A stretch of DNA of 64,000 nt from Nautilus pompilius (lineage: Eukaryota > Mollusca > Cephalopoda > Nautilida > Nautilidae), in the NCBI GenBank assembly GCA_018389105.1, contig JACATO010000999.1:620001-684000 (forward strand), given 5' to 3'. Below, piece after piece: positions 916 to 21,412 of this stretch (positions are counted from its first letter, which is position 1; every line of letters starts with the position of its first letter). Below the pieces are notes generated by a model that was not told the DNA's origin, did not search any database, and worked only from the letters and a program-made list of their open reading frames with translations. The translations under genes were made by a program, and so were the position numbers.

Positions 916-1800
916 ATGATGGAATCGGTGCAGAAGCCCAAACCTTGCGGAACGGAGGTGGTCCACGAAAGGGCCAGGTTTCCGGGCGTGGTGGCGAGCA
1001 GCAGGGAGTCCCGGACCTGCTGGATATGCTTCGAGGGCGAGGGCGAGAATTCGGCCAAAAAATGGACCAAACCCTGTCGGTGCAAAGGCACCATGAAGTG
1101 GGTTCACAACGACTGTCTTCTGCGGTGGATCGACAAAAAGCAAGAGGACGATCCGGCCGAAGAGGTGGCCTGTCCGGCCTGCAGAACCACATACGTGGTC
1201 ATTTCTGGCAAACGCGGAAGGATACTGTCCTGCGTTGAAAATCTAAAAAAGATGGTGTTCAGGTGCTGCCCCTATTTGCTGTCTCTCTTTGTCATGTGTA
1301 CTCTTTATTGTCTCTCTCTGGTGTACGGCCACTCTACCGTGACGCTTATATGCGGAATCGAAAAAAGTGTCGAAATGTTTGAGGAAACCAATCCAATGTG
1401 GCTGCCGTTCGCGCTTCCTCTGATCCCGGTGATGTTGATCGGGTTCAGGTTGCTCCGATGGGAAGACTACGTGTTACACTTGTGGCTGAGGTATTCGAGG
1501 CTCTCCGGAGTGAACTACTCAGTTCCACACACCTACGCCAGGATACCCATACGTGACCTGTCCTTGCTGGCCATATTTCCCGATTTTATCATGCTGATGT
1601 CTGAGGCTCTTTTTCTTCCCAGCATCGGTGTAGCAACGGGCAACATCCTGTTTAGCTCCCTTCAGTCGCGACTGAAGCGCGCTCTACTGGGATGTGTCGC
1701 CTACACCGCGCTGAAGGGAACGATACAGATCTACTACAAGCGTCAGCTTTTCGTACAGCAAAGTGACAGAACGGTTAGAAACTTCGATGATCTGAGTTAG
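916..1800 (+). CDS. MARCHF5-like RING-CH E3 ubiquitin ligase, paralogue 1 (intronless)
   Basis: Predicted 294-aa membrane E3 ubiquitin ligase. A RING-CH (C4HC3) domain spans about residues 35-89, with ligands C35, C38, C54, C56, H64, C67, C86 and C89, all present. A membrane region follows, with hydrophobic segments near 117-137, 161-180, 226-246 and 256-273. The motif WEDYVLHLW (about 182-190) and the KGxxxxYYK segment near the C terminus match vertebrate MARCHF5 (278 aa), an outer mitochondrial membrane ligase acting on fission factors. The mitochondrial location here is inferred from family membership. The reading frame is a single exon. Two adjacent ATGs (916 and 919) are possible starts; I use the first. 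Two similar intronless genes lie downstream on the same strand. The exact substrate is unknown, and orthology to MARCHF5 rather than a divergent paralogue is uncertain. Confidence 0.9.
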   Translation: MMESVQKPKPCGTEVVHERARFPGVVASSRESRTCWICFEGEGENSAKKWTKPCRCKGTMKWVHNDCLLRWIDKKQEDDPAEEVACPACRTTYVVISGKRGRILSCVENLKKMVFRCCPYLLSLFVMCTLYCLSLVYGHSTVTLICGIEKSVEMFEETNPMWLPFALPLIPVMLIGFRLLRWEDYVLHLWLRYSRLSGVNYSVPHTYARIPIRDLSLLAIFPDFIMLMSEALFLPSIGVATGNILFSSLQSRLKRALLGCVAYTALKGTIQIYYKRQLFVQQSDRTVRNFDDLS

Positions 1801-2045
1801 CATGCGATCGGTTCTGCCACCGACATCTCCGGCGACGCGATCCAGACAAAAGTCATACAGGAACCGTGGGGTGGGGGGAACGAAAACGCAGTAGCTCTCC
1901 CCACCACTGTGAGTTCATGCGTAAAAATATATGTAAATAAGGAACAAAAGTACCCAACAAAGGAGCTGTTTTCATTTTTATCATTTAGAAAAGAATACAA
2001 GGCATTCCAACAGGCAGAGACAAAGTTCTGTGAAATGTTTTTCGC

Positions 2046-2051
2046 AATAAA
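2046..2051 (+). terminator. Poly(A) signal AATAAA
   Basis: A canonical AATAAA about 245 bases past the stop codon of the first RING-CH gene. It is a plausible 3' end signal, judged from sequence and position only. Confidence 0.45.
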
Positions 2052-3479
2052 AGCAATTTTTGACACAAATGAATATTCGGAAAATATAACATTGACAGGG
2101 TTCACACTGTCGAAAGTATGTTATATGGAATAAGATCTCGCGTTACTAAGTAAAGTTATTTAAAGTCCGTCCGCGTGTGGATGATGTTTACCGGCCGGAG
2201 TCTGTTCTTGTTTCGGTTCTGGTCCAAACCGGCACGGGCCACAGTCTGCGACATAGGGTTAAAGAAGAAATGAATTTACGGTGTCTCAGAGGGATCCTAC
2301 CCTACGATACAAAGGCTCGAACCTTCGGCAACTCAGATGAACGGTACCGTGCAAAACGAAAAAGCAGAGGTCACGTGTTTTCATGGAGGGGCAAAAATGT
2401 CGGGGATGCAGCCATTTAAGACAAAGCAATTAATTAGTTGCGATAAACCCGAGAGAAGCGTCATTCTAACTAAATAATCTAAAAGATAAGATTCCTTCGC
2501 TGGTCGCCACGGCGACGGAAATGATCACGAGCGAAGGAAAGCGGGGGTCACTTCCGGTTAGAGAGATGACGACGTTTTTTGTGCTTAACTAAGCCATAAC
2601 GCACCCCAAAAGTGTTCAGCAGTCCCCCTTTTTAAAAGACCGGAAGGAGACAGGTATTTCGAGCCGCTAAGAGAAGAAAACTACTAGTGAGGAAGGAAAG
2701 TTGTACGGATCTTTGGTCTTCGAGCCGGAAGGAAGCTGTTCACTTGCGAAAGACCGCGTCCGGGAAATGTCGTCTGCGCAGAGACCCGTACTTCGAGATG
2801 TAGCGTTTGCGTGACATCTGAAAGGAGAAGGAATAGATCAATTGTAACGGGTATTAAAACTCCTGAAGGGACGGCGACGCTACACCATCCTAAATGAATA
2901 CCCTGATTTATAAGAAATACGATTAGATTTCCTAACGGTAATTTTTTAATGCACAAAAGTGTCTTCAGCGGGGGGGGGGAGGGTTAAAGAAAGGGCGACT
3001 GCTATATACAGGGAATTATTGTTCCATTATAATTAGCTTTGATGAAATTTTTGAATAAGGATGCTCCATTTGGTGCTAAACTAAATGCGACAGCCTCAGG
3101 TACCGGACAGGCACGAACTCCCCTCTCTCTGGTATCGCCTGACTTAAGGTGTCCACACACAACTGGCCACATGAAAACGATGACCGACATCTCGCTAGAG
3201 CGAGATTTTCTCAAACAGTGAATGTATATATACACTGGCGTCTATAATTATGAGCACACCGGACGAAAACGCTGATGTATGCGTTCGCAATATTTTATTG
3301 CTAATGGAGATATTAACCCAGCTAAGAAACCCATCAGGTGAACCAGGTATCAGAACATAAACTATAGCGCTTTAATCCCTTAAAGATTTTTAAAAATTTT
3401 TTGCCTAATTATGGACCCAGAAACTTATTTCTATGAATGTTACATTTAGTTTATACCGAAAGCATTATGCTGTTGTGTT
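2052..3479. other. Intergenic, no gene seen
   Basis: Mixed-composition sequence with a G10 run near 2970. A B-box-like GGTTCGAGCC occurs on the - strand near 2312-2321 and may be a decayed SINE. On the - strand an AATAAA (about 3292-3297) could belong to the secreted-protein gene that comes from the right, but no connecting exon was found. Confidence 0.4.
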
Positions 3480-4300
3480 CATCTGACGCCATTTCTTACA
3501 TATGAAAAAAATAGCGATTAAAAACAAAATCCAGGATGAATCAAGGGCATCATCTGTTATTGCCTTTCATAAATCTGGCTACTCCCAATGGAAAATTGTA
3601 GAGGAAGTGGTGGGTATTGTGGTGTGCAAACAAGTATTTACCTGGCTAGGGGAGGGGACTTTGAAGCGGAAAAATAGGCTACTGATTCGAAAGCTGACAG
3701 GTAGCCAATTAACGTCTGACCACAATTTATCTTCAGTAATCAGAGCATGGCTAATAAGGGCTGAACTGCCTGGCTAAGCAGCAGCTGTGAGGCCCCGACT
3801 TAGACGTGGTAACGACAAAAAGACACTTGACTGGACTAAGGGAATCAGAACCACACCTCGGAGCAGAGGTGCAGTGGGATAAGAGCAGTGTTCGATGCGT
3901 CTGATTCTAAGTGACGACATCATCTTAGGAAAAAGGACGGACGGAGAAAGTATAAGGGGAAGCTGCTTTCTCACACAGTAAAGCATGGTGGTGCAAATGG
4001 AAGGATGCGGGGTGGTTCTGCAGGTTATTTGGCTGATAGCTTGGTAAAAATTGCTGAGATTCTTGCGAAAGAGAGAGACATCGCAGTGTCTTGCAATTCC
4101 GCCAGGGTGTTGTTTGACGGGCGATGGCTTTATACCGCAACAAGATGGTGATCTGAAGAGCACCGAAAAGATCGGCATGCAACACTCTGCTGGAAAACAA
4201 CAACAAAAAAGGGGGCTTCTTAAAGGCAAGGATTTGACATCTCAGTATGCAGCTCTGAATGCCATTAGACTTGAATGGCGTGAAATAGACTGAGGAGTTC
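3480..4300 (+). pseudogene. Decayed Tc1-like transposase
   Basis: Conceptual translation across frames gives pieces in Tc1-transposase order. A helix-turn-helix-like N terminus (starting at 3502, with SGYSQWKIVEEV) is followed by a KHGGAN-type segment near 3980. Then comes GFIPQQDGD near 4129-4155, which corresponds to the family's FQQDNDPKH catalytic region, and a terminal RLEWREID like the family's NPIELLWRELD. Several stops and frame changes separate these pieces, and the conserved aspartates are partly lost, so it cannot encode an active enzyme. Terminal inverted repeats were not located. Confidence 0.7.
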
Positions 4301-4495
4301 AGAAGGATGGGTCCACGGTATCAGTGGGCTTTCGGACTGCTATACCCTCAAGCGGAACGCGGGTTACTTACGAAGGGAGGTATTTCGAGAGGTCACGGAA
4401 CAGGGCGCCCGAATCGGCAGTTATCCGCATGAAAAAGTTGCTATTTTAATGAAAAAGGGCCTAAACATCACAGTTAATGTTTCGCGTGTTCTGTT

Positions 4496-4680
4496 GGGCG
4501 GCGCGGTAGTCCGGTGGTTAGAGTACTAGGCTGTGAAGGCTATGACCGGCTCGATTTGACGTACCTCTTCAGCACGGTTCCTTCTTGCCCCTATAAATGA
4601 GGAGTTAAGGTAGGGACTTTCGACACACACTTCATTTGTTGACGAAGGCTACGGGAACCCTGGTTAATCCCCTACCTGGC
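4496..4680 (+). repeat. tRNA-derived SINE-like repeat
   Basis: The head reads GGCGCGGTAGTCCGGTGGTTAG, which looks like the 5' part and A box of a tRNA. A weak B box (GGCTCGATTTG) lies about 30 nt on, followed by an unrelated body. It resembles the - strand repeat at 296-452. The right end is a guess. Confidence 0.5.
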
Positions 4681-4810
4681 ATGACTTCCTGCTGAAATGG
4701 AGCCGCGAGCCTGCCCTCCGGGAAGATATCGACGATACCGACAGCGCAGTGTCGATCAGGTGGGGCCCGTGAGCTCCCCCCCCCCCGCGGTTAGTTTCGA
4801 CACCCTGGCG
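4681..4810. other. Short GC-rich spacer
   Basis: Contains a C10 run near 4780. It is the 3' flank of the secreted-protein gene. No poly(A) signal is visible immediately here. Confidence 0.3.
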
Positions 4811-5396
4811 TCAGTTCGGGGTAAGGACCCTGCGGGGACCCGCCGTACGTACGTTTAACTCGCTGATGTCCTGAGCGGTGAGCTTGTTGCCGACCGGCGC
4901 CATATCCGCTACCCTGATCAACATGACGGCCACGCTTAAGGAGCCGCATTCGTCGAAGTTGACCTTGTCTACGTAACACGTGGCCGCGTCTTTCAGGGCG
5001 CTGGAAAACAAAGGGAAAAACAAACAAAAACGGCCTGGCTGCTGAACTACGGTCCGCCGAATCACCACTCGGTAAACCTACGCGCCCACTATCGTTTGAT
5101 CTTTTAAACTTTCTTCTCCCCCCCCTAAACTCACAGAAACATCCAGCTCCTCCGCACCCCCGCTAACACATCACTACTATTAAACAAATAATCAACTAAC
5201 TCTCCCACCCACTTGCCGGTGTTTTGGATACCGCCCTCTTTTTTTTCTTTGCGGACTGATATTCAAAAAAAGAAGTCCGGACTCCAGATAAACAAAAAAC
5301 AGCGACACCGAAACGGTAAAGGTGATGAAGAAAAAAAACAGAGCATTATTAGTATTTTAATATCAGGTATGCATGCTATTATTATTATTATTATTA

Positions 5397-5429
<33 letters not shown>

Positions 5430-8400
5430 ATTACAATTTTGAAATCCACATCTGTGTCGTGTTTCGGTATTTCTCCCCGTCCGTGTTTCACTGTATACCT
5501 TCAATCTGTCCACTGCAATAGAAATCTCCAGAGCTAAATCAAAGAAATCTTTGCCTCTGTCTAAAAATAGAAATAAACAGATTCACTCTTTAGTCTTTTT
5601 TAAAGTTTGTTTCTCGTGTTCACTTGTTTTTATTCCCCAAATTTTAAAGAGTTAGTAAAAACAACAACAACAGTAATAATAGTTACCCATCGGGATTTTC
5701 GTAGATGCTGTTCAGACATAACTCGTCAAAGTTCATTTTGGTGCGCACGCAGCCCGGGTTGACCTCCCCGCCGCCGTGAATAACTGGAAGAGGGAGAGGT
5801 AGGCGAGCGAATAGTCGTTCTATGTGCTGAACCAAGAACTAAAGGCGTCACGTGACTGGGAAAATGCCGTAAAGCGAATTAAAAGCGCCATCTGTTCGGT
5901 GGAATTTTGGGCTAAGTTGAGCACAGTTTGGTTAACCCTAACCCTTCCACGAATGTTCAGCAGCGGTTGGCAGTAGGTCAGAAAAGATTTTAAGAAAGAA
6001 AAGTTACAAAGCAAATAAAACGAACACATTTTAAAAAGAAATTGGTTGGCGAAAGTTGAATAATTCTTGGCGGATTAAAATGCAGAAAATATGGTCTGTT
6101 TTTATTTTTGGTGTAATAAAAACTTTTAAAACAGTTAACAGGCTATTATTGCGTCCTGCTCAAGTGTACGTGATGGAAATGTTTCATGAGCGGGGTGTTT
6201 TGCGTACTGTCGACATGTCAGCATCCTCATGGTGTGGGAGTTCACCAGCTACCAATTTTTTACGTCCATCTGGATGTTGAGACCAGGAGTTTCAATGCGG
6301 GACAGATGTTATCATTACAAATAATTCCTCTACACGAAAAAGGCCAACTCTACGTTCATAATAAATTAATTTCTTCGCTTTTTGTTTTGAAAACTTAAGT
6401 AATTAAGCAGATTTTCAGTGATGAGAACTGGTGATTTACCATCTCGAAATTGACGCTGCACAGACGACAACCTTAGCTTCCGGTCGAGGAAATACGGATT
6501 GGCCGTTGGAATTAGACCTAATGGAGACTGTCAACTTAAAGGAGTCTGCTAATAAACAGACCCAGTGAATTTACCCAGCAACTAAAACACCGTCAATTAC
6601 TTATATCACTGATTTCAAGAAATATTAATACATTTAACCGCTTAACGTCTTTTTTTAAAAATCATGTATCGTACGAGTCGCGACATCATCATCACTTCGG
6701 CAGTGGTACTTTTGCTGCCATACTCGGCGTCGCACCTGGATTCGCCAAAAGAGATGAGTCTCAGGTCCATTCCCGACGATCCGGATTTCCTCATTTCTAA
6801 AGCTCAACGTTGCCTTATCGAGTGGTGGCCATAAAGTAAGAGCTGCCCACAGCAAGAATGTCGGCAAGGAAAGCCTCGTTCTGCAAGAACCGTCGACGAA
6901 AATTTCTCTCCGTGACCCCTCCCCCTATTTGGCACCACCGCAGGGATCTGGGCGCAGTCGTTCCTGCTGTTCTTAAGAGACATCGGGGAACAAGCGCGAA
7001 ACCACAAACTTCCTGCCTCCCTGCTCCGCTTATTCCAGCGACAGCCGCCAAACGATGATCGTAAATGTCTTTTGAATTGTATCAAAACAAATAATTACTA
7101 TTCGATAATATTTACGAAATAAATAGAGAATAAATCTACGCAGCCCCTTTAATGCCTGTCTTGGTAGTTCATGTCCCCTAGAACGTCATCTTTGCTACAC
7201 CCCTACCCCAGAATGAGTAAATTAATCTTCTATTTGTAATCACAGTGTTTTTCTCAGTGGTAGCGTCAGAATTTAATCCACAGAATGTCTTATACTCTGA
7301 AAACTGGACGGTGTTGTGACCGTGTCCAATAAGGTTCTTCATCAGGCGTAACTAAGACTCGAGGGTAGCGTAGTTCAGCTGAATTCCAAGAATCTGTCGC
7401 CTATTTCCGGGACGTTTTCCCAATTCTCGGCGCGACGTGGATGGGTTACGGTGATCGGCGTGGGTTTACAGGAAACAAAAGCGTTAAAATAACACGGAAA
7501 TGAAAGGACAAAAAGAGAGTTAACTACTCACCACTTGTTATTTCCTCTGAGAGATCGTCGCCAGAGCAGAGAAAGCTCGGCTGTTCTATAGAGGAACTGC
7601 AAGGAGCGCAGCGGACAAATCCAGGCACGAGCGTCCTGGAAATAGAAGGCAACACACCTGACTGATGACTGAAGGTGATGCGCTAAGAGACAAACGTGTA
7701 AAATCTTTGGAAAAAAAAAAAAAGGTGCTATAATTTGCCATATCGCCAGCAAAATCGTTAGGCGAGTTCTCGAAGTTAAATCGGTCCACAGGCAGGGTTA
7801 GGGTTAACTTACAAACCGCCCCTGGCTACCCGCAAATAAAAATTAAGGCCACATAAAAGTAATGCATAATGGCCGTATTCTCCATCCCTGCCACAGTCAA
7901 CTCTATACCCACCGAAGGGCTGTTTCTATTCCAAATCATTATTCTATTTAACCTCGTGTGAAAATTGTATGATACTTACCCGCAGTAGTTTTTGAGAAAT
8001 TTGGTGAGGTCGCTATCGGTCATCGATTCGTCTCGAAGAAATCCGATGTCGGTTTGAGCGCTCGATTTCGCGTGGCATTTGCTGTATTCTTTTTGGCACT
8101 TCCCGGCCAGACATACTGAAAAACAACAAATATCCATCGTGTGCGTGAGTTTGAAGGTTTGTCTCGGAAGATTCCAAGAAAACCTTACAAAGGTGTCCCG
8201 TTTTGTCTTCCCCTATCCGGCGTTACGTCTTCTAATGTCTAAGAACTGAAACACCCTGGTTGAGTTAGACGAGAAGAAGGAGCAGCCCTGAAGTCTTCAG
8301 CGGACGGAACCTGTCCTTTTTTAAATGGTTGTACGCCACGAGACACCAGAAACCGAACCTGTGGCGTCTTAGATCTAGGGATTGGAACTGGGGGAACTCC

Positions 8401-9249
8401 CAATACTTAGGGAAGTAACCGAGCCGGAAATCCGAGAACCATGGTGAAGTCTACAGAACGTTAGAATGGGTGGAAAGATCGTCAGCGAAGCGCTTAAGTT
8501 CGAAGGCTGAGAAAGGGCTGGAAGTCCTGCGATGGGGAGATTGCATCGTTGGGTGGCTAGAAAAAAACCTCACAGGAAAAAGCCGAAGACATTACACGCA
8601 CACAAGTATTTAGTAGCAGAAAGTCTCGCGTGAAAAAATACAAAACAAAACGATCACCCAATAGATACCATTTAATTCAGTATCCCGCCAATCTACGGGG
8701 TTAATTCTTCACACAGTGGCCGACACATGTATCCCACTCGGACTCTCGAGAGACTGGTAGCTTTATTCCGCTTACATCCGTTCCACCGTTTTCAATTGTT
8801 TGTCTGTATTACTATTATTTTACTTTCAGTTTATATTAAGTATGGCAACGCGAAAGTCATTCGCAGAAGGACACAGGAAGTCCTTTAAAAGCTCCCTTCC
8901 CTTTCAGATCAGCCATTGATGTGTTGGTCGCTTGACCCTAGATCAGGCCCGATTGTGCTGTTCACTGCATTTTTCGTGATAGGTTTGGCCAGTGACCGTC
9001 GTGACTGACAGAGTGGCGAGAACAGCTCGTGATTATCGTCCGTCCAGGAAGGCAAAACGTTTCGCCCTCTGTCGCCAGCGTTTTTTATGGCAGTTATCTC
9101 CCTTCAGCCGTAGCGCAACCGATATAGAAATAACATTCCTTCACGTAATGTCAGCACTAACAAATTATTTTTTCCACCTGAAGAACCGAAGATAAGTCTG
9201 CATACATACCCGCCACTGTTAGTGCGAAGCAAAAGATTCTAGCAAGCAT
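4811..9249 (-). CDS. Secreted cysteine-rich protein, five or more exons, family not recognised
   Basis: Rebuilt from splice signals. Coding exons on the - strand are 9249-9210, 8115-7980, 7635-7532, 5783-5687 and 5000-4853; every junction has GT-AG ends and keeps the frame. The first exon encodes a hydrophobic signal peptide (MLARIFCFALTVA) that runs into VCLAGKC. The five exons give 175 aa with 11 cysteines. Cleavage after CLA would leave 10, an even number that suits disulfide pairing. The last exon may splice on at AAC|GTACGT (4853), or read through 13 more residues to a stop at 4811; the stated span uses the stop. A 27-kDa-haemolymph-protein-like or other disulfide-rich extracellular fold is possible, but I do not recognise the family. 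Introns of 1.1, 0.3, 1.7 and 0.7 kb contain no other gene I can support. A TATA box lies upstream. Confidence 0.75.
5377..5430. repeat. (ATT)n microsatellite
   Basis: About 18 ATT/TTA units, slightly interrupted, inside the last intron of the secreted-protein gene. Confidence 0.9.
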
Positions 9250-9322
9250 TTTAGCTTCCCGCGATCGGTCTCTGTTCTTGAAGTCCTGAACGGTTACAAT
9301 GGCCGTTTGAGAAGCAGCCGAC

Positions 9323-9329
9323 ATTTATA
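9323..9329 (-). promoter_or_regulatory. TATA box of the secreted-protein gene
   Basis: TATAAAT on the - strand, about 75 nt upstream of the start codon at 9249. This predicts a transcription start near 9295 and a 5' UTR of roughly 45 nt. A TATA promoter suits a highly or conditionally expressed secreted protein. The call rests on sequence and position. Confidence 0.6.
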
Positions 9330-9737
9330 CAGCAAACTTCTTTGATGTTGCTATTTTATTCTGCGGAACCCCCCCCTGCCCCTGAGCTCGCGTTAATTAC
9401 TGTTTAATTGCATTTAATTCTTTTTCTGACGTTTTCAAAGTATGAAAGATAGAATTTGCAATTAGTGAATTATGCACCAGTTATCGACATTTGATCAAGT
9501 TCCTTTACAATCTCCTGCTATCGGAAAGCGGCGACAGACTTTCTAATCTCATGACTCCGTGTCACGAGATCCCACCAAGTTTCGGTTCCTAATCTGTATT
9601 CATTTATGTACCGAATTTACCATAACTTTGAAATTATTGACTGTAAAATACCATTTCTCAAAATAATGTCTCGTTACACAAAATAAATAGACGGGTGTTT
9701 CATAAATGCCAATTAATTACGAGGGATAATTCATCAC
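9330..9737. other. Intergenic, no gene seen
   Basis: AT-rich sequence upstream of the secreted-protein gene, running into the CA-type microsatellite. No feature could be supported. Confidence 0.4.
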
Positions 9738-10100
9738 TACACACACACACATACACACATACACACACATACATGCATACATACATACACACATCTCACA
9801 CACACACACACACACATACATACACCCACACACACACACATACATGCATACATACACACATACAGACACACACAACACACATACATACATACACACTCAT
9901 ATACATTCATACACGCACGCACACACACACACACACACATACACACACACACACACATACATACCCACACACACATACATGCATACATACACACACACAT
10001 ACATACCCACAACAATACATGCATACATACACACATACATACATACATAACACACACACACATACATACATACATACACACTCATATACATTCATACACG

Positions 10101-10146
<46 letters not shown>
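9738..10146. repeat. Compound (CA)n / (ACAT)n microsatellite
   Basis: About 400 bases of CACACA, interrupted by ATACATAC and GCATACAT blocks. A segment near 9892-9950 (ACACTCATATACATTCATACACGC) recurs near 10077-10110, so the tract contains an internal duplication of about 185 bases. Long open frames of Thr/His or Cys/Val across it are artefacts of the repeat. Confidence 0.95.
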
Positions 10147-10149
<3 letters not shown>

Positions 10150-11988
10150 CGACAGAAGACAGACGGTGATAAGTAAGTTAACAGGGAATAGCTTAAATAA
10201 ATATACAGAACCGAACAAATACTTTTCTATATATTTTCAATGTTTTGTTTTCTAAGTTAATTAGATAATAATCCCTGTTATCCCGAGCTGCGTACGAGTC
10301 GGTCGCCCCGAGCTCCCATCACCGATCTCGATAGTTCTCGTGCAGCTGTGGCCCCTGTCACCGAGAGTTCACCGGGGCGAATGGCTCCGTGGCGGAACAA
10401 TACCCCACCCCGCGCGCTCGGCTACAGTGGGTGTGGAGCATCTTAAAACCCCCTTTTCAACCTAGACGACCCCTCCCTTCTCCCTATATGTCGGAAACAT
10501 TAGAAACGCTGCCACCAGACCCTGACACAGGACCCCGAAGACCCAGCGCCAGCCCAGATAATGGCCCCTCCCTCCCTGATGCCGAGGGACTCGACCGTTC
10601 GTCTTCGCTGTTGTTTACCCCGCAACGAGACGGAGCCATTTAAATAACAGCGGGGCTGCATTAACCCTCCATTTTCTAGTGGCTGCGTATATTTAGGGTT
10701 GTTGCGGATACTCGAGACGGTTTACCGTGGAACATCTGTGTAAAGGAAGAAATTCGAACTAAACTTGTACCGGGAATAATTAAATATTTAGTAACTCGTC
10801 ATGATGGGGTTAAAGCCGAGTGACAGCTTTATTAGAAAAAGTAGAACTTTTTATATTCATAATTAATAGCACTAAATCTTTTTAGAAGAAGGAGGCCTGT
10901 TTTTAGTTTCTGTTCTGGCCACCAGAGGGAAGCACCTCGATCAAAAAGTATAAATAAAAACAACAACAACAACAATGCCTCTGTCACGCTCGATTTCATC
11001 CGACAAAAGGTAGGATCTAAAATTGGAGGAAAATTAAGGTGAGAATATTTGATTTGGTACAGACATTTATGGAGTCATTCAATTAACTTATTCTGCAGCT
11101 GTCAGCTTCGGACGGCGACCATTTACTCCAATTTACAACAATTCTATTACCATTTCTTAAAAAAAAAAGACAATAAAATTCCACTATTGGCCTTATTCCT
11201 AAACGTTTTAAATGTCCGATCTGATAATTTCCACTGTTCAGTCTATTCCAAACATTTAGGAACCGAGATCAATCTAGAAATCCGATGCTGAGCCATTATT
11301 AACACATTAATGTCCTTTCTCGAATATCTCCACATTTATGAAGAATGTTCCAGAGGCGGATGAACCAAGGTTTTATTTAACAAAACTAAAACTTAGCTGG
11401 TTTTTTTTTTTAACGTTTGATACTCTGGTTAATTACTCGCCCCCCCCCGTTTGTATCTGAAATCAGGGAAAGCTTCTCGTCCGAGATGCCGGCTAACGAT
11501 TTCTCCGGTTAAACAATAAAAGACATCCACCGAACGAGTAAAATTATTATTTTTAGATTTTCTCTTAACTCAAAATATTATTCAGACTATAAAAAGTAAA
11601 GTAGAGATGCATAAGGAGAGGAAATAAATGGAATTTTAACTATAACTAATGATTTGAGTTTCGCCAAACACAATCGTGGTTTAAATCCCCTCCAATAGAA
11701 GCGGAAGTCTTACGTAGGGTCGCAACGTCGTCTCCATGGCAACGAGTCAACTTTAACCAAATTATGACGTACCACAGATAGGTGTTTGTGTTTGTTTCAT
11801 GTCCAGATTTGCAAGAAAAACAGGAAGACATTTCAGAGAAGCTTCACGTTTCCCCCTCCCCATCCTCCCTCTTCACAGAGAGACCCTTCTTTTTCCAGAA
11901 AACGTTTTCAGTAGTTTCCCTTTCCTCCCCACCACGCAAGTTTTTCTATTTTCGCGTCGTCGTGTTCCCAGAGCAGTCGCTTGCAGAG
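10147..11988. other. Intergenic region upstream of RING-CH gene 2
   Basis: Contains a GC-rich block at about 10280-10660 with an 84-codon proline-rich open frame (10389-10643) that matches nothing I know and is probably not coding. The rest is AT-rich. The frame of the next gene stays open upstream of 11989 back to an ATG at 11782. That extension is low-complexity and unlike the family, so I treat it as 5' UTR. Confidence 0.4.
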
Positions 11989-12831
11989 ATGACGAAGGAG
12001 AGCCGCCCCAGGGAGAGAAATCGGTGGTGCTGGATCTGCTTCGAGTGCGACAAAGATAACTCGGGCAAGAAGTGGCTGAAGCCCTGCCGTTGTAAGGGCA
12101 GCATGAAGTGGGTCCACAACGACTGCCTGATGCGGTGGGTCGACGAGAAACTGGCCAGGGAAAGCGACGGCCAAGTGGCCTGTCCCGTGTGCAAAACCAA
12201 GTACACCATCATCTTTCAGCAGTACGGAAAGATGTTCTGCTTCATCCGGCGCGTGAGGAGACTCATCTACTCCGTCTGCCCCTTCGTCTCGAACGTCATC
12301 AAAGGATGCGCCCTGTTTTTCTCGGCCGGCATCTACGGGCGACTGACTCTGGTCCAGGTGTACGGCTTCGAGACGGGGCTGGCGATCTTGGAGAACGAAG
12401 ACCCCGTCTTGCTCCTGGGCTGCATGCCGGTGATCCCGCTCCTGCTCATCACCTTCCAGCTGTTTTCCTGGGAGGACGAGGTGCTGACGCTGTGGCGAAA
12501 GTACGTTTCGAAAGCCGACGGCAAGGGCCGCCCTCCCAGGCCGAACCCGCCGTTGGCGCGGAGCGTCCACAGCCGGCACATCCACATGGTTCTGTTCGAT
12601 AGGGTTCTGTGCGAGGCCCTGCTCCTGCCTACGATAGGGATACAGCTGGGCAACCTGTTGCTGAAGAATGTCGTGCAGTCCAAGCTTCTACGAGCCGTTT
12701 TCGGCGGATTCCTGTACACCCTGACCAAGGGGATGTTTACCATCTACTACAAGCAGCAGATCCACCTGAAGCACAACAGGCGGATAATAAAAGACTTCGA
12801 AGAGCCGAACGATGTCCTGACGAAGCTTTGA
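11989..12831 (+). CDS. MARCHF5-like RING-CH E3 ubiquitin ligase, paralogue 2 (intronless)
   Basis: Predicted 280-aa membrane ubiquitin ligase, close to the 278 aa of human MARCHF5. RING-CH ligands C14, C17, C33, C35, H43, C46, C65 and C68 are all present. Hydrophobic segments follow the CPF motif near residue 90, in the usual four-pass arrangement, with the family WED motif (FSWEDEVLTLW) between segments. The C terminus has the KGMFTIYYKQQ stretch, closely matching the KGAFKVYFKQQ region of MARCHF5. I chose the ATG at 11989 because it gives family length; an in-frame ATG at 11782 would add 69 low-complexity residues. The codons are richer in G and C than those of paralogues 1 and 3. It is on the same strand as the other two copies, and no intron is visible. 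Substrate unknown. Confidence 0.9.
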   Translation: MTKESRPRERNRWCWICFECDKDNSGKKWLKPCRCKGSMKWVHNDCLMRWVDEKLARESDGQVACPVCKTKYTIIFQQYGKMFCFIRRVRRLIYSVCPFVSNVIKGCALFFSAGIYGRLTLVQVYGFETGLAILENEDPVLLLGCMPVIPLLLITFQLFSWEDEVLTLWRKYVSKADGKGRPPRPNPPLARSVHSRHIHMVLFDRVLCEALLLPTIGIQLGNLLLKNVVQSKLLRAVFGGFLYTLTKGMFTIYYKQQIHLKHNRRIIKDFEEPNDVLTKL

Positions 12832-12864
12832 AAGCTTCTGAGACACAGCTGCCGTCTAAAAGAA

Positions 12865-12870
12865 AATAAA
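12865..12870 (+). terminator. Poly(A) signal AATAAA
   Basis: AATAAA 34 bases past the stop codon of RING-CH gene 2, followed by an AT-rich stretch. This would give a very short 3' UTR. Confidence 0.6.
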
Positions 12871-13850
12871 GCTATATATATATATAATTTCTTTAATTAA
12901 CAATGTTCCTAATTTCGATACAATTTACAAAAACATCTGTATTGTGGTAAATAAAAACCTTATCGTTCGCGGAACGTTGGCATTATTATTTTGTAACATA
13001 TATAAGTGAGTACATAGCAAACTCGCGGATTACAAACATTCCATCTTGGACTCTCAAAATAGCTGACTGCAATCGAACCCCCGACTGGTTTCGGTTACGC
13101 ATGACTACGTTTCGAACGAGATTAGAACCAGCAGCAGGAGACCGCCGCGGTTTATGTTAAGGGCCTTCCAACAACCCAGAGAAGAGAGGATAGGATGGTG
13201 GGAGGGGGGAAAAGGGGGCTTCGCCAATACATCCACTACTGCGCTTTCTGGGAATTTATTTTGACCATTAGAAATTGTATTCATAAAAACTGTTTTCTGA
13301 TATTTAACCAGGCCGAAAGGCTCGGTTAGTTTCTAACTCCGAGCCCTGCTGTCAGTCACTGTAGACGGGCGACAAACATTCACTTCTGCCCACGTGTCGA
13401 AAAATACTTCTTTCTTACCCAACGCCATTCGTAGCCACGTAAAATTGTGTACTACACCGCAATACGTTTAATTACGATAATCTAAACTAATTGCTCAATT
13501 TCTGTAGTACTCATTAAAAAACCCCCGAGTTCCGCAGCTTCTGTTTAGTAGTTTTAAAAGATGTTGACAGAAGGCGCCCGAGGTTTCTCTCAAAAGATCT
13601 TTTTTCTTTTTAAAGAAAGTAAATGTATCTATTTCACTCAACGATAAATTTATTCCATTCAAAAATTTTAATTTTCAATAAATAGTGGGACATTTTAACG
13701 GTTTTATTTTTTTTAGGGTGGAGAGGTGAAACAAAAAGGGCAGTTTGCTTACGAACCCATCCATCAGTGCGATTAAAAACTACATAACCTTTTGTTTCTG
13801 AACGTGAAATAATAAATTCTTAAATATCTAATTGTCGACCGTGCAGCTTT
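12871..13850. other. Intergenic, no gene seen
   Basis: AT-rich with short GC islands. A B-box-like GGGGGTTCGATT on the - strand near 13075 suggests another decayed tRNA-derived SINE, but no A box or body could be aligned with confidence. Confidence 0.4.
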
Positions 13851-14117
13851 AATACTCTCTCTCATCTCCATCTCTTTCTCACCCTTCTTGTCTCCATCTC
13901 TCTCTCTGTACTGACGTCATCTCTCTCTTCTCTCTCTCCCTCATCTCGCTCTCTCTCCTCCATCTCTCTCTTTCTCACCCTTGTCTCCATCTCTCTCTCT
14001 CTCCATCTCCTCTCTCCCTCTCTCCTCATCTCTCTCTCTCTCCTCTCTCTCTCTCCCTCCTCTCTCTCTCATCTCTCTCGTACTCTGTACTGACGTCATC
14101 TCTCTCTCTCTCTCCAA
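13851..14117. repeat. (CT)n-rich tract, left arm of an inverted pair
   Basis: About 270 bases of CT repeats, with ATCTCCATCTC and TTTCTCACCCTT interruptions. A GTACTGACGTCAT block occurs twice (CRE-like palindrome TGACGTCA at 13912-13919 and 14091-14098). It is the reverse complement, in general structure, of the GA tract at 14816-15119. Confidence 0.9.
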
Positions 14118-14811
14118 ACTGAAAAGATGTAATCGTTAAAGTAATTAATGCTGAATAATAAATAATTAGATTTGGAGAAATCTGTAGGCAATCGCCAAAC
14201 AGGCTTTCTGGTCGCACATTTCCTTTTCATCTCCATCAATTGTTTTGCATTCACAAAGGTCGCACATTGGTAATCGCCCACGATAAACGGCTTAACAATT
14301 CCTTTTCACATTCACCCACTATTTTGAGTTGAAAAAAAAAAGGGGGGGTCAGCTCACGCGCAAAGCAGAGCACCAGCTAACATCTAATTTCGGTATTCGA
14401 ATGACTAATATCCACCGAATTCCTTTTACTGATCTTCGTAAGGATGCCTGCACCATTCCTCTCCACGCTGCGTTTCGAGGCGAGCTACTTGGATCGCCGA
14501 GCATCGTATACAGTGGTACCTACCCCAAGCGCACTCTGTTCCCGAAGGTCCTCGTTGCTCGGTAAACATACGTTGGCGGCGGCTGCAGAAAACTCTGAAT
14601 CGAACCGAACGGATGCGAATTTCCAGTTGGAACTGGTTTCATTCATCGCCTTGAAAAGACGATCTAGAGTAGACTGTACAGGACGCTGTTTATATTATAT
14701 ATATATATGTGTGTACGTGTGCAAAGAACAAATCCCGAGGAAATTTAAAGTGTAAAAACAGACCAAAAACAAAATAATAATATATTCACTGAATCGACAC
14801 CAGACTAAATT

Positions 14812-14815
<4 letters not shown>
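14118..14815. other. Spacer between the CT and GA arms
   Basis: About 700 bases of unique-looking sequence between two inverted simple-repeat arms. Short open frames (for example 14329-14565 and 14444-14755, +) overlap in different frames and resemble nothing known. Confidence 0.4.
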
Positions 14816-14856
<41 letters not shown>

Positions 14857-14984
14857 TGACGTTCAGTACAGAGTACAGAGAGAGAGAGAGAGAGATGAGG
14901 AGAAAGAGAGAGAGATTGACGTCAGTACAGAGTACAGGGAGAGAGAGAGAGATGGAGAAAGAGAGAGAGAGAGAGAGATGGGAG

Positions 14985-15068
<84 letters not shown>

Positions 15069-15119
15069 GGAGAGAGAGAGAGATGTGAGAGAGAGAGAGA
15101 GAGATGAGAGAGAGAGAGA
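14816..15119. repeat. (GA)n-rich tract, right arm of an inverted pair
   Basis: About 300 bases of GA repeats containing GACGTTCAGTACAGAGTAC (near 14858) and TGACGTCAGTACAGAGTAC (near 14915). Both are the reverse complement of the blocks in the CT arm. Predicted open frames of alternating Arg/Glu or Ser/Leu are repeat artefacts. Confidence 0.9.
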
Positions 15120-15461
15120 AGCAGCTGATGACATCACGGAGACCGGCAGGCACTGGCTACAGAAAGGTACACTGTCGGATAATCTAAATACGCACAGATC
15201 TACCCACGGATTTTACTTGATGTTTTAAAGTTTACCATTTAAAAATAAAATATTGTAAGGTGTGTGTGTGTGGAGGGCAGGTGCTTTATTTATAGACTTG
15301 CCACAACATCTGTTGTAACAGTGATACAGACGTTTCAAACGTCCGAGGTGAGCGAGCTTTCTGCATGAATGTCTTAACCTGTTCATTATCCCAGGCTAAT
15401 AGCTTACAAACATCGCCGATGCCTTGATATGCCCGCCCCACCCCGCGGCCGTTATAGGTAC

Positions 15462-15462
<1 letters not shown>

Positions 15463-15521
<59 letters not shown>
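15463..15521. repeat. (AAT)n microsatellite
   Basis: A pure run of about 19 AAT units. Polyisoleucine and polyleucine open frames across it are artefacts. Confidence 0.95.
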
Positions 15522-18273
15522 GAACCTCAGAGTGAGAGACAGAGCGCGCGGAGTTTTGGCTCGCAAACGCGACCGCGCGTAACATCACTGTTAATTTCCG
15601 CCAGGGGCCGGAACGAACCGAAAGAGCCCCCCTAACCCCGCACACTTAAGACTCGCACACGTGGGCCAACACTAAACGTACCACAACGCACAGCTCAACC
15701 TTACTTGTAGAAACTGGGCAACAAAGGACCCCGCCGCTTACCGAAGACAATGTAAAAGATTTGCATGACTTCACAAAGTGACAGGTAGTAAATGGCAGTT
15801 TGGACGTCGGGAGTCTCAGTGTCGTCTATTCTCGTCGAATGGGTGAACGAGGGTGCGGAGAAGGACCATCGAGCGCTTCAGAGAGCTCGCTCGCAGCCCA
15901 AAGTTCAACAGCGAAACAGCGTGTCGCTGGGATGACCGACCTGGTGTTCATCGAGCCATACCTGAATTTTGTTCCACACACATCCATTCTCGACAATCAT
16001 GTTCTTATACTACTTTTCCAACAAGGCGTTTAGCAGTTCAAGACATATTTTGTGCAAGAAGATTATGCCATTTATCATAACTCCAAAAAGCCAACACCTT
16101 CCGGCGAAGACAGAGGGGACAGGGGCTGCAGATCTTCCACTTATGCACTGTTATCATTAATGCAAATGAACCCCTCTTAGAGAGCCTTCATCTCCAAATT
16201 CGAAAAGCAAGACTCTCTCTCACATTTGAAAAACATATTGGCCGAACTTTGGAAACATTTGGACCGTGTTATTACACAAATTCTTGTTCCATCCACACTC
16301 TAAGAGCGTCCCTTTTTTTTGGCAAGGCTCTTGTACTTATCTCATTATGCCCCCAACCCTTTTCTTTTAGAACCCTAATAGTAAATTAGGGTATTTACTC
16401 TTTTTCATATACTAGATTCCCAGCACAAAGACACTTTTCGTGTACTTCATTTTCTTAACTGTAAAAACTGCCAGTGTATGTACGTCCATCTGCCCGGACG
16501 CGAAGATTCGGCTAACGCTGGGACAGTTCAGTGTACAGGATCTGAATCATGATCTTGACGATTGGAATTCATCCCTTCCATTATTTCTCTCTCTTCACTC
16601 TATCGCTCTTTTGAATTCCTACACACGCACTTCAGATGGTTGAAATATAGTTTCTATTTACCACCCTTGCTTTGTTTTTGCCCGTTTCTAGAATTAAAAT
16701 TAGATTTAGTTCTGTTCATTTGGATGAAATGGCAATTCAATATTCTCGTTTAGGAACCTCGGACGACAGCCATTTCTAACGCTATTTTCGAGGGAGAGAA
16801 AAGGAAATAGTGACATCAGAACCCACGTGATCGCCATACAGCACCAAGCAGAACTGCAACAGCGCCATCTACACATTTTAAAAGAGTATCGAAAGCTTAA
16901 ATTAACTACAATTTTTCTTCGCAATTAATGAGGAAAGTTGTGATAAAAATCCTTTATGGAGTAAATAATAATTTTTTTTTTCCTTCCTGCGCGAGACGAT
17001 TTTCGTCCAATCGTAATTCGTCTCTCGAAACGTATGAATTAGAAGCGGCGTAGCAGGCTCGTGGGGGAGGGAATCCGACAGACAGATTCTCTCTCTTCTT
17101 TGCATGCGTTGCTATTTATGCAACAGAAAACGATCGCCCGCGGTTTATCTGATCTGGGAGAAGGCCGAGTGATCAAAGGTACATACAGCAGTTACATGTC
17201 TTGTAAGGAGGCCCCTTGCAGGCACCTCACCGGCTGGACTTCTAACCGACTAAATGCCAGGATTTAAAAACGAGAAAGAAATGGAGACGTTTCGTCGTGT
17301 GTTTTAAAACCTTTTCTGTACACGCAATTAAGCATCTATCGATGGGAATCCTTGCGACTAGGTCCATCTCGACACGGATGCGTTCGATGTCGTGGTACCG
17401 ATGCAATTTGTGGGAACGCCACTTTAGAATAAGGTTCATATCAAGCACAGGGGCGATAACTCGCCTCGGCTTCTTTCCCTCTTCGCTGCACAAATTACCG
17501 GAGCGAAAGTTTATTCTGTTTATCCACGATACTTGGTAAGGCTACAGGTTCAGGTGATGACAGAAAGCGCTCTCCGGAAGACCGAGCGACAGTCAAAGAG
17601 AATCTTGCGCTGTTGAAGAACCATTTTCATAATAGCCCGGAGAATGTGTTCGAGGGCCGGACCGATCGCCTCGTCATTTAAAACCCTTAAGCACGTGACT
17701 TTGTAATACAATTCACGTTTGTTTTCATCTCGTGTATTTAAACAGGTGTTCTAACCCCTCTAAGACTTGAAAAAGCCAACGTGACTAACACAAGGCTGGT
17801 GTGTATAGTACGTGTACTGACAGGTTCTTATTGGAAATTGCTTGTATCATATGATGCACCCTCTATCGGGTGTTATCTTTCAGTATTAAAATAAATAACA
17901 AGGCCAGGCACCAAGAATTTTGGGACTCCAGTGCAACTATGGAAGGCAAGAACGAAAACAAATCAAATTGATAGATATTAATATAAAACGTGGATAGTTA
18001 TAGATTCATTCAACTTAATACAAAACCAACATGTACTTTTGTTGCGTAAAATTTAATTTTCTTATTGACGAACCGACTTCTGACGTCTTTGAACTCCACC
18101 TCTTAAGCTGTTATCGTCCACCTAGCTGAGTAGGTAGATAGCGATGAAAAGCAACATTTTTGTGGCATAGCTGACAGACACAAACTTTTAATAATTTTCT
18201 GCTTACTAAACTTCTCTCTCCAGCTGCTGCAGTAATGGAATCAGGGCTGCAGACGAGTTAGAGAACATTTGTA
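15522..18273. other. Intergenic, no gene seen
   Basis: About 2.7 kb with only short overlapping open frames on both strands. No splice-consistent exon, RNA gene or transposon could be recognised. Confidence 0.4.
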
Positions 18274-19429
18274 TTAGGTTGTTACAAAAGTTTTGTCGTT
18301 TTTTGTCTGTTTTTTTTATTTTTATTACGGCAATGAGACTTCAGATCGCCGCTGAACGTGAAGTTTATTAACCAAACTAAGTTCCGTTACAATCGAGGTG
18401 TTTGGAAAGGTGGTAGTCTGTAGGAGAAAGGTGTGGTGAATGGACTGGGTGAGGGAGAACTTCGTGCCCCAAAGTGTTCAGTTTCTGAAGAGTCACTTTT
18501 TCAACACGAGGACGGCCATTGTCGTGGAGCAGCACTGGGCCTCTTCGATTCACCAATGCCGGCTGTCGTTGGGAGAGTTTCTGATGGACACCGTTTAATT
18601 CACGACAGGACCTTTCAGCTGCGATGGTTCCACCAGGTTGCAAGAAGTTAAAGTGGATGACACCTGCTGCACTCCACCAGACAGTGACCATGACCTTCTT
18701 TGGGTGGAGGCTGGCTTTTGGAATGTGGTTAGCCGCCTTCTCTCTGTCGAGCCAATGATCGTTTGCGATTGTCGTAAAAGATCCATTTTCCATCACACGT
18801 AATGATTCGGCCAAAAATGGGTCGTTTTTATTTCTCATGACGAGAGAAGAGCAGATCTCCAATTGACGATTTTGTTGTTGTTCATTCAACTCGTGAGGCG
18901 TCCACCTGTCAAGCCTTTTCACCTGGCCGATTACGTCAAGATGCCGGGAAACAGTTGCAGTGCTGACATCAAGCTCTCCAGCAGTTTCTCACTGTTTTTC
19001 TTGGATTGGCTTCAACTGAGGTTTTCAGACAGTTGCCATCACAGCTGGAAGGACGTCCGCTACGTTCCTCATCTTCGAGGCTCACATCTCCAGATCGAAA
19101 ATCTAAAAAATATCGTCGTACTGTGCGCTCATCTGCTGTGTCCTCGCCCCATCCCTGCTTGATGTCACGAGTCGCCTCGCTCGCTTTGTGGTCCAGTTTG
19201 AACTCGTGAAGCAAAATGGCACGAAAAACGTTTCTATCCATGCTTCGGTCAGAACCCTGAAACAAATATCCATTTTATGATTTTTAAAAAGGTAGGTTTT
19301 TCGTAATGTATGCTAAAGCACACGCTACTAAACGATATATAGCTAATGTACATACACCTTCACAATCAGGCAAAAAATGTACCCCAAATTAACAATATAT
19401 AAACCAACGAAACTTTGGTGACGACCTGA
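18274..19429 (-). mobile_element. Dead mariner (Tc1/mariner) transposon
   Basis: A complete but decayed mariner of 1156 bases. Terminal inverted repeats of about 29 bases start TTAGGTTGTTAC on the left and, reverse-complemented, TCAGGTCGTCAC on the right; about 22 of 29 positions match. TA dinucleotides flank both ends (18272-18273 and 19430-19431), the expected target duplication. The transposase reads on the - strand in two frames. An N-terminal HTH part (19265-18969) includes RSGRPS. A C-terminal part (18922-18377) includes WTPHELNEQQ, LHPKKVMVTVWWSAAGVIH, LLHDNGRP and SPTDYHL. The first catalytic region (usually CDEKW) has become RVMENGSF, so that Asp is lost, and a frameshift splits the enzyme. 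It is inactive. Confidence 0.93.
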
Positions 19430-19460
19430 TAGTTCATGAAATTGAGTTATTAACTGAAAG

Positions 19461-19784
19461 TTATGCCCCCCTTTCTCTCAATTCGTTGATGGCCAAATAA
19501 CCTACTGATTCGCATAGTTTGGAGGCTTCTAATATGGGCGGACCATGGTAGACTACTGGACCGCTATAGATGGGAGCCCAGTCGGAATACCAGTTGGGAC
19601 TGGCTTGGCTTGGCATACCTCCCTCTGGCATAGTTCTCACATCTAAAAGTGAAGTGTTCTGGTAAGGGTTTACGGGTACATATAATAGAGCTTCAGTGGG
19701 TACCTCTTGACTCTGGTTTAGCCCCCCCAAATAAAGCCGTACCTGGGTCACGAGTGTCAATACACAACCTACACCTATCCCCAC
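19461..19784 (-). CDS. Unrecognised 107-codon open frame
   Basis: Encodes a protein-like sequence with a hydrophobic N terminus, followed by a Pro/Tyr-rich section (NWYSDWAPIYSGPVVYHGPP) and a charged end (AINELRERGA). It is not low-complexity and could be an exon or a transposon fragment. No family was recognised and no flanking splice logic was established. It lies between the mariner and the third RING-CH gene. Confidence 0.2.
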   Translation of the reverse strand: MGIGVGCVLTLVTQVRLYLGGLNQSQEVPTEALLYVPVNPYQNTSLLDVRTMPEGGMPSQASPNWYSDWAPIYSGPVVYHGPPILEASKLCESVGYLAINELRERGA

Positions 19785-20127
19785 TGCAGCTCACCGCTGT
19801 GTGAAGCAAGTACTTAGATCTTGAAAATCAGGGCTGGGTTCACCCACAAAGACTTAATGATACGTCATAGTAGGAAGAGGTTGTTGTGTGACGTCATTTT
19901 TAGGTTTATGATGTTACATTACCTTTTTTTTTTTAAAAATATATATACATATACCCTAACTACACCATCCGAACTTCTCCAGCAGTCTTATTTTGAAAGA
20001 AAACCAATCCCCTGATATCTTCAAGCGATATCCTTTTCTTTTGTTGTTGTTGTTGTTGCTGCATTATAAAATATTTTCGAATACCATAAACGTTGTAAGA
20101 ACAAACGGCTCAGTTCACACCTTTACA
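19785..20127. other. 5' flank of RING-CH gene 3
   Basis: Contains AT-rich sequence with a (TTG)n run near 20041-20058. The frame of the downstream gene is open back to an ATG at 19993, but this extension is low-complexity and is probably untranslated. Confidence 0.35.
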
Positions 20128-21210
20128 ATGCAGTCAACGAAAAACACAGCACAGACCGGAGACGAGAGAGTCTCGTTATGCTCAGATGCCGCCACTGCGG
20201 CATTGTGTTCCAGTTTTCGTAGAATATGTACGAACGATGCAAACAGGGGGGAAAAGATCACGGTGGCTAACAGCCCGGTTGGATTGCCAAATTCAAACGC
20301 TGAAAGTCCATCACACGCTTTAGTCACGAGACAGACAGCCGCGCCGCCGCCTGGGAGAGCAGAGGAGAACTTAGGAGGTCACACAGACCGGCAAAGCAAC
20401 AACAGGAGTTGCTGGATATGCCTAGGGACCGAGAAAGATAACCCGGGGAAAAAATGGGCAAATCCCTGTCGCTGTCGAGGTACGATGAAGTGGGTTCACG
20501 ACTGCTGTCTTTTGCAATGGATCGACCAATGTCAGAAGAATGATCCAGGAGCGGAGGTCGTGTGTTTGGCTTGCAAGACCGCTTACGTCATAGTTTTAGG
20601 TAAAAACAGCACATTTATCTCCTTCCTGAATTCTCTCAGAGAACTGGCGTACAAGATTTGCCCATATATTTTGACAGCTCTGTGCATGGTCACATTGCAC
20701 TGCGTTGCGATGGCGTACAGCTACATAACGATCAAGTTGATATGCGGGATGGACAAGAGTAGCGACGTGCTAGAGACAGCCGACCCGATGGTGCTGGTAT
20801 TTGGGCTGCCCCTCATCCCACTAGCGCTGATCGTCTACAGGATGTTCTCCTGGGAAGACCGTATACTGGAAATGTGGTATAAACGCTCACCCAGCAGGTC
20901 TCTCAGCCCGTCCCATCCCGACTTGTACTACTTGATTGTCATCCAAGACATGCCACCAATGAGAATCTGCCCCCGGTTTATTTTAATCCTATCCGAAGCC
21001 CTGTTTCTACCAACCTTGGGAATGGTAACCGGCGACATTTGCTTCCGCTTCGTTCGTTCGAGACTGAGGCGCACCCTGCTGGGCGTCCTCGTGTTCGTTC
21101 TCGTTAAAGGAGTTCTACAAATCTACTACAGCTGTCAGGTTCACACTCAGCATGACAGCAGGGCTATCAAGAATTTCGAAGAAAATACTCCACAAGTCTG
21201 TATCCAGTAA
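20128..21210 (+). CDS. MARCHF5-like RING-CH E3 ubiquitin ligase, paralogue 3 (intronless, long N terminus)
   Basis: Predicted 360-aa membrane ubiquitin ligase, counted from the ATG at 20128. About 90 residues of polar, probably disordered sequence precede the RING-CH domain. Its ligands C95, C98, C114, C116, H124, C127, C146 and C149 are all present. The membrane region starts at KICPYIL and keeps the WED motif (FSWEDRILEMW) and a C-terminal KGVLQIYY stretch like MARCHF5. It is more like paralogue 1 than paralogue 2, for example in the ICGMDKS and ICGIEKS segments. The long N terminus is unusual for the family (278 aa in human MARCHF5). An in-frame ATG at 19993 would lengthen it by 45 residues, and no shorter in-frame start is obvious near the RING. 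No intron is visible. Function is inferred from the family. Confidence 0.88.
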   Translation: MQSTKNTAQTGDERVSLCSDAATAALCSSFRRICTNDANRGEKITVANSPVGLPNSNAESPSHALVTRQTAAPPPGRAEENLGGHTDRQSNNRSCWICLGTEKDNPGKKWANPCRCRGTMKWVHDCCLLQWIDQCQKNDPGAEVVCLACKTAYVIVLGKNSTFISFLNSLRELAYKICPYILTALCMVTLHCVAMAYSYITIKLICGMDKSSDVLETADPMVLVFGLPLIPLALIVYRMFSWEDRILEMWYKRSPSRSLSPSHPDLYYLIVIQDMPPMRICPRFILILSEALFLPTLGMVTGDICFRFVRSRLRRTLLGVLVFVLVKGVLQIYYSCQVHTQHDSRAIKNFEENTPQVCIQ

Positions 21211-21406: not shown

Positions 21407-21412
21407 AATAAA
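21407..21412 (+). terminator. Poly(A) signal AATAAA
   Basis: AATAAA about 200 bases past the stop of RING-CH gene 3, followed by an A-rich run. Confidence 0.5.

Follow-up and report, generated by a model that had tools for sequence, protein, structure and literature searches.

A 64,000-nucleotide stretch of the Nautilus pompilius contig JACATO010000999.1 (labelled C954 in the genome searches; C954:620001-684000, the whole of which is called the window here) carries on one strand three open reading frames (ORFs), w1, w2 and w3, whose products are related to MARCHF5, also known as MITOL, the RING-CH E3 ubiquitin ligase of the animal outer mitochondrial membrane. An earlier note, made from the letters of the window, had described them as three intronless MARCHF5-like genes, and the description holds. 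Each ORF is uninterrupted from ATG to stop, each matches the Pfam RINGv profile (E 2.1e-13 for w1 and for w2, 7.2e-10 for w3) and, in a genome search with the canonical MARCHF5 protein of the same species, the alignment covers canonical residues 14-277 for w1 (E 3.7e-53), 13-278 for w2 (E 2.0e-53) and 17-278 for w3 (E 1.3e-51). Because the homology of all three spans the full length of MARCHF5, beyond the RING alone, a chance origin of the ORFs is ruled out. The eight C4HC3 ligands of the RING-CH domain (8/8 in each) and the WED motif are kept in all three, as the note had it, and the strong divergence that it remarked on is equally evident, with pairwise protein identities of 38, 42 and 36%. 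If its first ATG is used, w3 has a 94-residue N-terminal extension ahead of the first RING cysteine. An AATAAA, in each case a consensus match only, lies 245, 33 and 196 nt past the stop codons of w1, w2 and w3, respectively. No family besides RINGv was above the cut-off in the Pfam scan of the three proteins, a search of solved structures with w1 gave RING parts only (of Doa10, a MARCH-type protein and viral K3), and searches for RNA families and tRNAs found nothing.

The three genes are part of a larger, selected family of MARCHF5-like ligases that includes a new, shortened variant. A cluster of three had been noted; the cluster is real, but the number is an undercount. The search for further copies proposed at that time was made in the whole host assembly (727,640,739 bases in 2,558 contigs; genome match counts are lower bounds) and yielded at least ten intact single-exon copies. 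At least 15 places match the RINGv profile, ten of them MARCHF5-like, and protein searches with canonical MARCHF5 and with w1, each giving at least 15 matches, agree on at least ten intact MARCHF5-like copies. These comprise at least one canonical gene, at least five tandem copies, at least one full-length copy elsewhere (on contig C298) and at least three short copies, with ORFs of 183-360 codons. The five intact tandem copies occupy one strand of C954 over about 33 kb (607.8-641.2 kb), at 607.8 (C954a), 611.4 (C954b), 620.9 (w1), 632.0 (w2) and 640.1 kb (w3). With human MARCHF5, represented in all comparisons below by a provisional sequence, the canonical copy shares 61% identity. The six diverged full-length copies have 30-36% identity to the canonical protein, and identity among the nine paralogs is 28-42%. 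All RING ligands are in order in 10/10 copies. The MARCH5 RING is reported to have a tryptophan in place of an arginine (PMC4897099); with that tryptophan taken, in our reading, as the residue after the first RING cysteine, it is present in eight of the ten copies, including the three in the window, and the other two (C954b and the short copy S_C263a) have arginine.

Other MARCH families were rejected as the source, ten of 15 RINGv places being MARCHF5-like. The RINGv places on C645, C2029 and C1345 align to canonical MARCHF5 over the RING only, and those on C636 and C2028 are absent among the matches listed in the canonical-protein search. A further match on C321 (L031; E 0.015, 30% over residues 192-270) was discounted as a copy, with two internal stops and with RNase H-like stretches in other frames at the locus. 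A viral origin was also set aside, a search of viral contigs with one peptide pattern having given no match. None of the papers listed in literature searches described an expansion of MARCHF5 in molluscs, although one broad search says little because MARCH5 or MARCHF5 occurred in none of the papers listed from it. A look for 'ubiquitin' in the main text of the Nautilus genome paper (PMC8257504) gave no hit, and Octopus bimaculoides is among the species sampled in a study of MARCH5 (PMC5526904).

That all three window copies look under selection, as earlier proposed, is borne out and applies to the ten copies together. The proportion of nonsynonymous differences (pN, 0.35-0.51) is below that of synonymous differences (pS, 0.60-0.99) in 45 of 45 pairs, and in all 45 codon position 2 is more alike than position 3; three misaligned controls gave a pN of 0.71-0.72. 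When neutral change was simulated (substitutions only, 500 runs per gene for ten genes), 0/500 runs were open for any of the ten ORFs at 0.6 changes per site, 0 to 4 of 500 were open per gene at 0.3, and 9-37% of runs were open at 0.05, so that a very recent loss of function would be invisible to this test. The suggested comparison of nonsynonymous and synonymous rates (dN/dS) is saturated in 13 of the 45 pairs and could not reveal positive selection. Decay is also represented, by three relics. One, between two intact copies on C954, is weak by genome search alone (E 0.028) and better in local comparison. Another adjoins the C298 copy on the opposite strand and was seen in local comparison only. 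The third, on C2552, can be aligned to the short form over the junction of the latter; it contains in-frame stops and no longer has the RING histidine. The family shows birth and death under purifying selection.

In the three intact short copies a piece of about 114 residues is missing from the middle of the protein at the same place, canonical residues 108-221 in two of them and 108-225 in the third. They align with MARCHF5 to the left and right of this piece, and retain the full set of RING ligands as well as the C-terminal helix and tail. Their hydropathy peaks number one, two and one, and a weak AlphaFold2 model of one of them (mean pLDDT 58.9) has helices at 98-112, 116-128 and 135-165. 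They have neither the four membrane segments nor the WED motif expected of MARCHF5 and, because the residues between are absent, would be classed as MARCHF5-derived rather than as MARCHF5 proper, apparently a distinct type of ligase. With a RING and one or two helices they are similar in layout to MARCH proteins and viral K3/K5, described as RING-CH plus two membrane segments (PMC4897099), a likeness that looks convergent since the similarity of the short copies to MARCHF5 continues on either side of the gap. A human MARCH5 derivative consisting of residues 1-139 (dT234; PMC4918326) resembles them in keeping the RING and being without the second to third membrane region. However, that derivative is a laboratory construct ending after the first membrane segment, whereas in the naturally occurring short forms the C-terminal helix and the tail are still present.

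Table 1. Coordinates of the MARCHF5-like genes, their relics and neighbouring features. Positions without a contig label are those of the window.
Feature	Position	Strand	Basis
w1 (copy c), MARCHF5-like single-exon coding sequence, 294 aa	916..1800 (C954:620916-621800)	+	ATG-to-stop ORF, Pfam, alignment
w1 RING-CH (RINGv) domain	1018..1182 (C954:621018-621182)	+	profile match
w1 WED motif	1459..1467	+	read from sequence, alignment
w1 AATAAA, possible polyadenylation signal	2046..2051	+	consensus match only
w2 (copy d), MARCHF5-like single-exon coding sequence, 280 aa	11989..12831	+	ATG-to-stop ORF, Pfam, alignment
w2 RING-CH domain	12028..12192 (C954:632028-632192)	+	profile match
w2 WED motif	12469..12477	+	read from sequence, alignment
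w2 AATAAA, possible polyadenylation signal	12865..12870; another at 12950	+	consensus match only
w3 (copy e), MARCHF5-like single-exon coding sequence, 360 aa	20128..21210	+	ATG-to-stop ORF, Pfam, alignment
w3 RING-CH domain	20410..20574 (C954:640410-640574)	+	profile match
w3 WED motif	20851..20859	+	read from sequence, alignment
w3 AATAAA, possible polyadenylation signal	21407..21412	+	consensus match only
Canonical MARCHF5, full length, 279 aa	C59:787150-787986		single-exon ORF
C298 copy, full length	C298:2024798-2025673
C954a and C954b, full length, upstream of window	C954 at 607.8 and 611.4 kb	same as w1-w3
Short copy	C954:487211-487816
Short copies, two	C263:12528-13079 and C263:15418-15972
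Relic on C954	C954:609456-609698		genome search, local comparison
Relic by C298 copy	C298:2022863-2023283	opposite to C298 copy	local comparison only
Relic of short form	C2552:905997-906191		alignment
Mariner-type transposase piece	18377-18838	-	PF01359
Tigger/pogo-type DDE_1 transposase	41470-42846 and 40964-41590	-	two ORFs
RNase H-like piece of reverse transcriptase	42855-43268	-
Immunoglobulin V-set-like domain	53602-54159	+	open stretch, Pfam
C2H2 zinc finger ORF	62246-63148	-	three zf-C2H2 stretches

All ten copies, the canonical one included, run from methionine to stop in one exon. A retrocopy, later duplicated and diverged, had been proposed as the source of the window genes, and of this the intronless coding, the duplication and the divergence stand. 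The rest fares less well. The search for an intron-bearing MARCHF5 parent, made as two whole-genome protein searches, found none, the sole canonical MARCHF5 found being itself a single exon; and at 108 sites where that protein differs from the human one, the nine paralogs match the canonical residue 120 times and the human one 153 times, so that one recent retroposition from the canonical gene is unlikely for want of any excess of shared residues. The RINGv place on C1345 was considered as a possible exon 1 of a MARCHF5 gene with introns and rejected, as it matches canonical residues 17-58 only and no further exon is among the matches listed. Because the ordinary gene here has no coding introns, DNA duplication explains the cluster without a retrocopy step, and an old intronless ancestor copied at the DNA level would be enough. 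A retrocopy origin is unproven and its simple form is not supported, and the copies are likely too old for a target-site duplication or a 3′ poly(A) remnant to be informative. A retrogene history can nevertheless be framed, at somewhat less than even odds, in which reverse transcription of the message of a MARCHF5 gene with introns gave a retrocopy that was later duplicated in tandem, the parent having been lost or replaced. The absence of coding introns from all ten copies, set against the six exons of each of the fish genes MARCH5A and MARCH5B (PMC4897099), is what such a history would give, and replacement of a multi-exon parent by a retrogene has been documented in amphioxus (PMC5803294); but the missing parent and the residue counts above tell against it, and loss of introns by other routes is an alternative.

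The age of the copies bears on a further possibility. A tree of 11 MARCHF5-like proteins only, unrooted so that the order of duplications is not readable from it, joins w1 with w3 (support 96/96), C954a with C954b (87/86) and, modestly, the short forms with each other (69/78), and the rest did not resolve. At the 108 sites the counts do not reach significance for any of the nine copies taken singly (p 0.13 to 1.0), with the C298 copy leaning to the canonical protein, one short copy even and the other seven leaning to the human one. By these comparisons the copies show no sign of recent descent from the canonical gene; they may be about as old as the split between molluscs and vertebrates, or else the canonical lineage may have changed enough to mask descent. 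That they represent a second ancient MARCHF5 subfamily, separated from the canonical gene before or near that split and lost in vertebrates, is a tentative proposal, clearly short of an even chance. Five of the six full-length paralogs are nearer to the human protein than to their own canonical one, by 1 to 4 points, and where at least four of the six agree in matching either protein at the 108 sites, the match is to the human residue at 11 sites and to the canonical one at 5. However, the lack of significance in all nine per-copy counts, the opposite lean of the C298 copy and the use of a single, provisional outside sequence count against it, and a faster canonical lineage would yield the same pattern.

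Constraint is unevenly spread along the protein. With the canonical-human comparison as yardstick, mean identity among the six full-length paralogs is 49% in the RING (yardstick 62%), 17% in the linker (42%), 28% in the first membrane region (79%), 41% in the second (86%), 14% in loop 176-208 (34%), 42% in the third membrane region (70%), 44% in the fourth and last (56%) and 29% in the C-terminal tail (54%). The RING and the last membrane region are thus best kept, and the first membrane region has lost most relative to the yardstick. In the tail, the position of a lysine reported in human MITOL, K268 (PMC6893362), is occupied by a non-lysine residue in the canonical Nautilus protein, and a lysine or arginine is found two residues on in 9/10 copies.

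In relation to known systems, the copies share with MARCHF5/MITOL the N-terminal C4HC3 RING-CH, an alignment extending to the C-terminal tail and, for the most part, the WED motif (4/7 full-length copies) and the RING tryptophan; they differ in their low identity to the canonical protein, their single exons, the tandem cluster and the short versions. Teleost MARCH5A and MARCH5B are likewise duplicated, with one fish copy linked to virus response, but are described as two copies with six exons and four membrane domains each (PMC4897099), compared with at least ten intact intronless copies and an internally deleted type here.

The explanation preferred, with a probability as a whole of about 0.65, is that w1-w3 belong to an old, lineage-expanded intronless family of MARCHF5-like membrane E3 ubiquitin ligases, which would grow by DNA duplication, partly tandem, and shrink by decay, beside one better-kept canonical MARCHF5. 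Each protein would be placed in the outer mitochondrial (or peroxisomal) membrane and its conserved RING-CH would bind a ubiquitin-conjugating enzyme (E2), with different substrates probably being reached because the parts between the RING and the last membrane helix diverged most. Short copies would lose loop-dependent substrates, such as mammalian FUNDC1, and keep RING-dependent ones, such as mammalian MAVS. This partner range is inferred from the region identities together with two sets of published results. Human MARCH5 1-139, which has a single membrane segment, was still able to reduce MAVS levels and interferon reporters, unlike dRING; pull-downs showed MAVS bound to the N-terminal part containing the RING but not to loop 160-208 or the C terminus (PMC4918326). 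FUNDC1 interacts with MARCH5 Cyto2, which in vertebrates, where MARCH5 is strongly constrained, has the lowest dN/dS of the four parts tabulated (PMC5526904). On this view the catalytic end would be conserved in the copies while the parts in contact with substrates vary, and the short ones would keep RING-dependent partners only. Their most likely use would be in restraining mitochondrial signalling or quality control, with antiviral tuning one possible version.

Several observations weigh against this explanation. The WED motif is intact in four of the seven full-length copies (C298 has WEN, C954a WDE and C954b WEE) and absent from the three short forms. Hydropathy peaks number two in C954b, three in C954a, w1 and w2, four in the canonical protein and C298, and five in w3; the membrane segments, said in the earlier note to be kept in the window copies, are less clear-cut than claimed. 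The AlphaFold2 model of w1 has long helices at 119-146, 163-179, 217-245 and 252-283 but is weak (mean pLDDT 59.1). None of 200 bootstrap trees places the five tandem copies together on one side of a branch, and pS/dS, saturated in the 13 pairs mentioned, is high in the rest, making omega rough. Finally, in absolute terms it is the loop and the linker that differ most, but the same holds between the canonical and human proteins, so that their divergence is not special to the copies, and for this reason confidence in the explanation is held at a moderate level.

An immune or stage-specific role, raised earlier as speculation, is still speculation. Immune families typically show birth and death together with divergence, and the C-terminal domain of a RIG-I-like receptor (RLR) is encoded in the host genome. 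MARCH5 down-regulates MAVS (PMC4918326), and of the fish pair, MARCH5A is reported to be more important than MARCH5B in defence against viral hemorrhagic septicemia virus (VHSV; PMC4897099). Even so, an arms race in which the copies tune MAVS/RLR-type antiviral signalling or serve as decoys for viral antagonists is unlikely to be the driving force: saturated sequences cannot reveal positive selection, and mitochondrial control in the germ line or under hypoxia would give the same pattern. A more ambitious synthesis is doubtful, namely that an ancient intronless MARCHF5 branch, lost from vertebrates, became in cephalopods a birth-and-death family that gave rise to a new short ligase type through one internal deletion, with loss of the substrate loop and the greater part of the membrane domain; the short ligases would naturally separate RING-dependent from loop-dependent functions and serve as dedicated regulators of mitochondrial signalling, either antiviral or in quality control. 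A relaxed, mostly non-functional array heading for decay, to which the three relics with stops or frame changes and the high protein divergence might point, is very improbable, with ten ORFs of such length open, every RING ligand kept, pN below pS in each pair and neutral survival of ORFs at such divergence essentially nil. One canonical and nine diverged intact copies in a genome, three of them shortened at the same place, constitute a natural experiment on which part of the protein serves which substrate, and the case bears on how a mitochondrial ligase becomes an expandable family.

As to surroundings, the window also holds a zinc finger ORF and, in an uninterrupted reading frame, a domain of immunoglobulin V-set-like type (Pfam E 5.9e-6); this frame is probably one exon of an immunoglobulin gene that has several. 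The Tigger/pogo-type element has an ORF of 458 amino acids, of which the second ORF appears to be the continuation in another frame, and the RNase H-like piece adjoins it. A copy of the Mariner-type piece (E 1.8e-20), about 80% identical over 1 kb, is present on C263 (L035), the contig with two of the short copies. Elsewhere in the genome there are 14 occurrences of the molluscan hemocyanin beta-sandwich domain, in two runs of seven on C557 and C1362 (L036-L045). Compared with single-unit chains, one of these units gives its best scores with 4yd9_C and 1js8_A, from the squid Todarodes and from Octopus, although unit type may confound this ranking; a seven-unit hemocyanin is known from Octopus and Nautilus.

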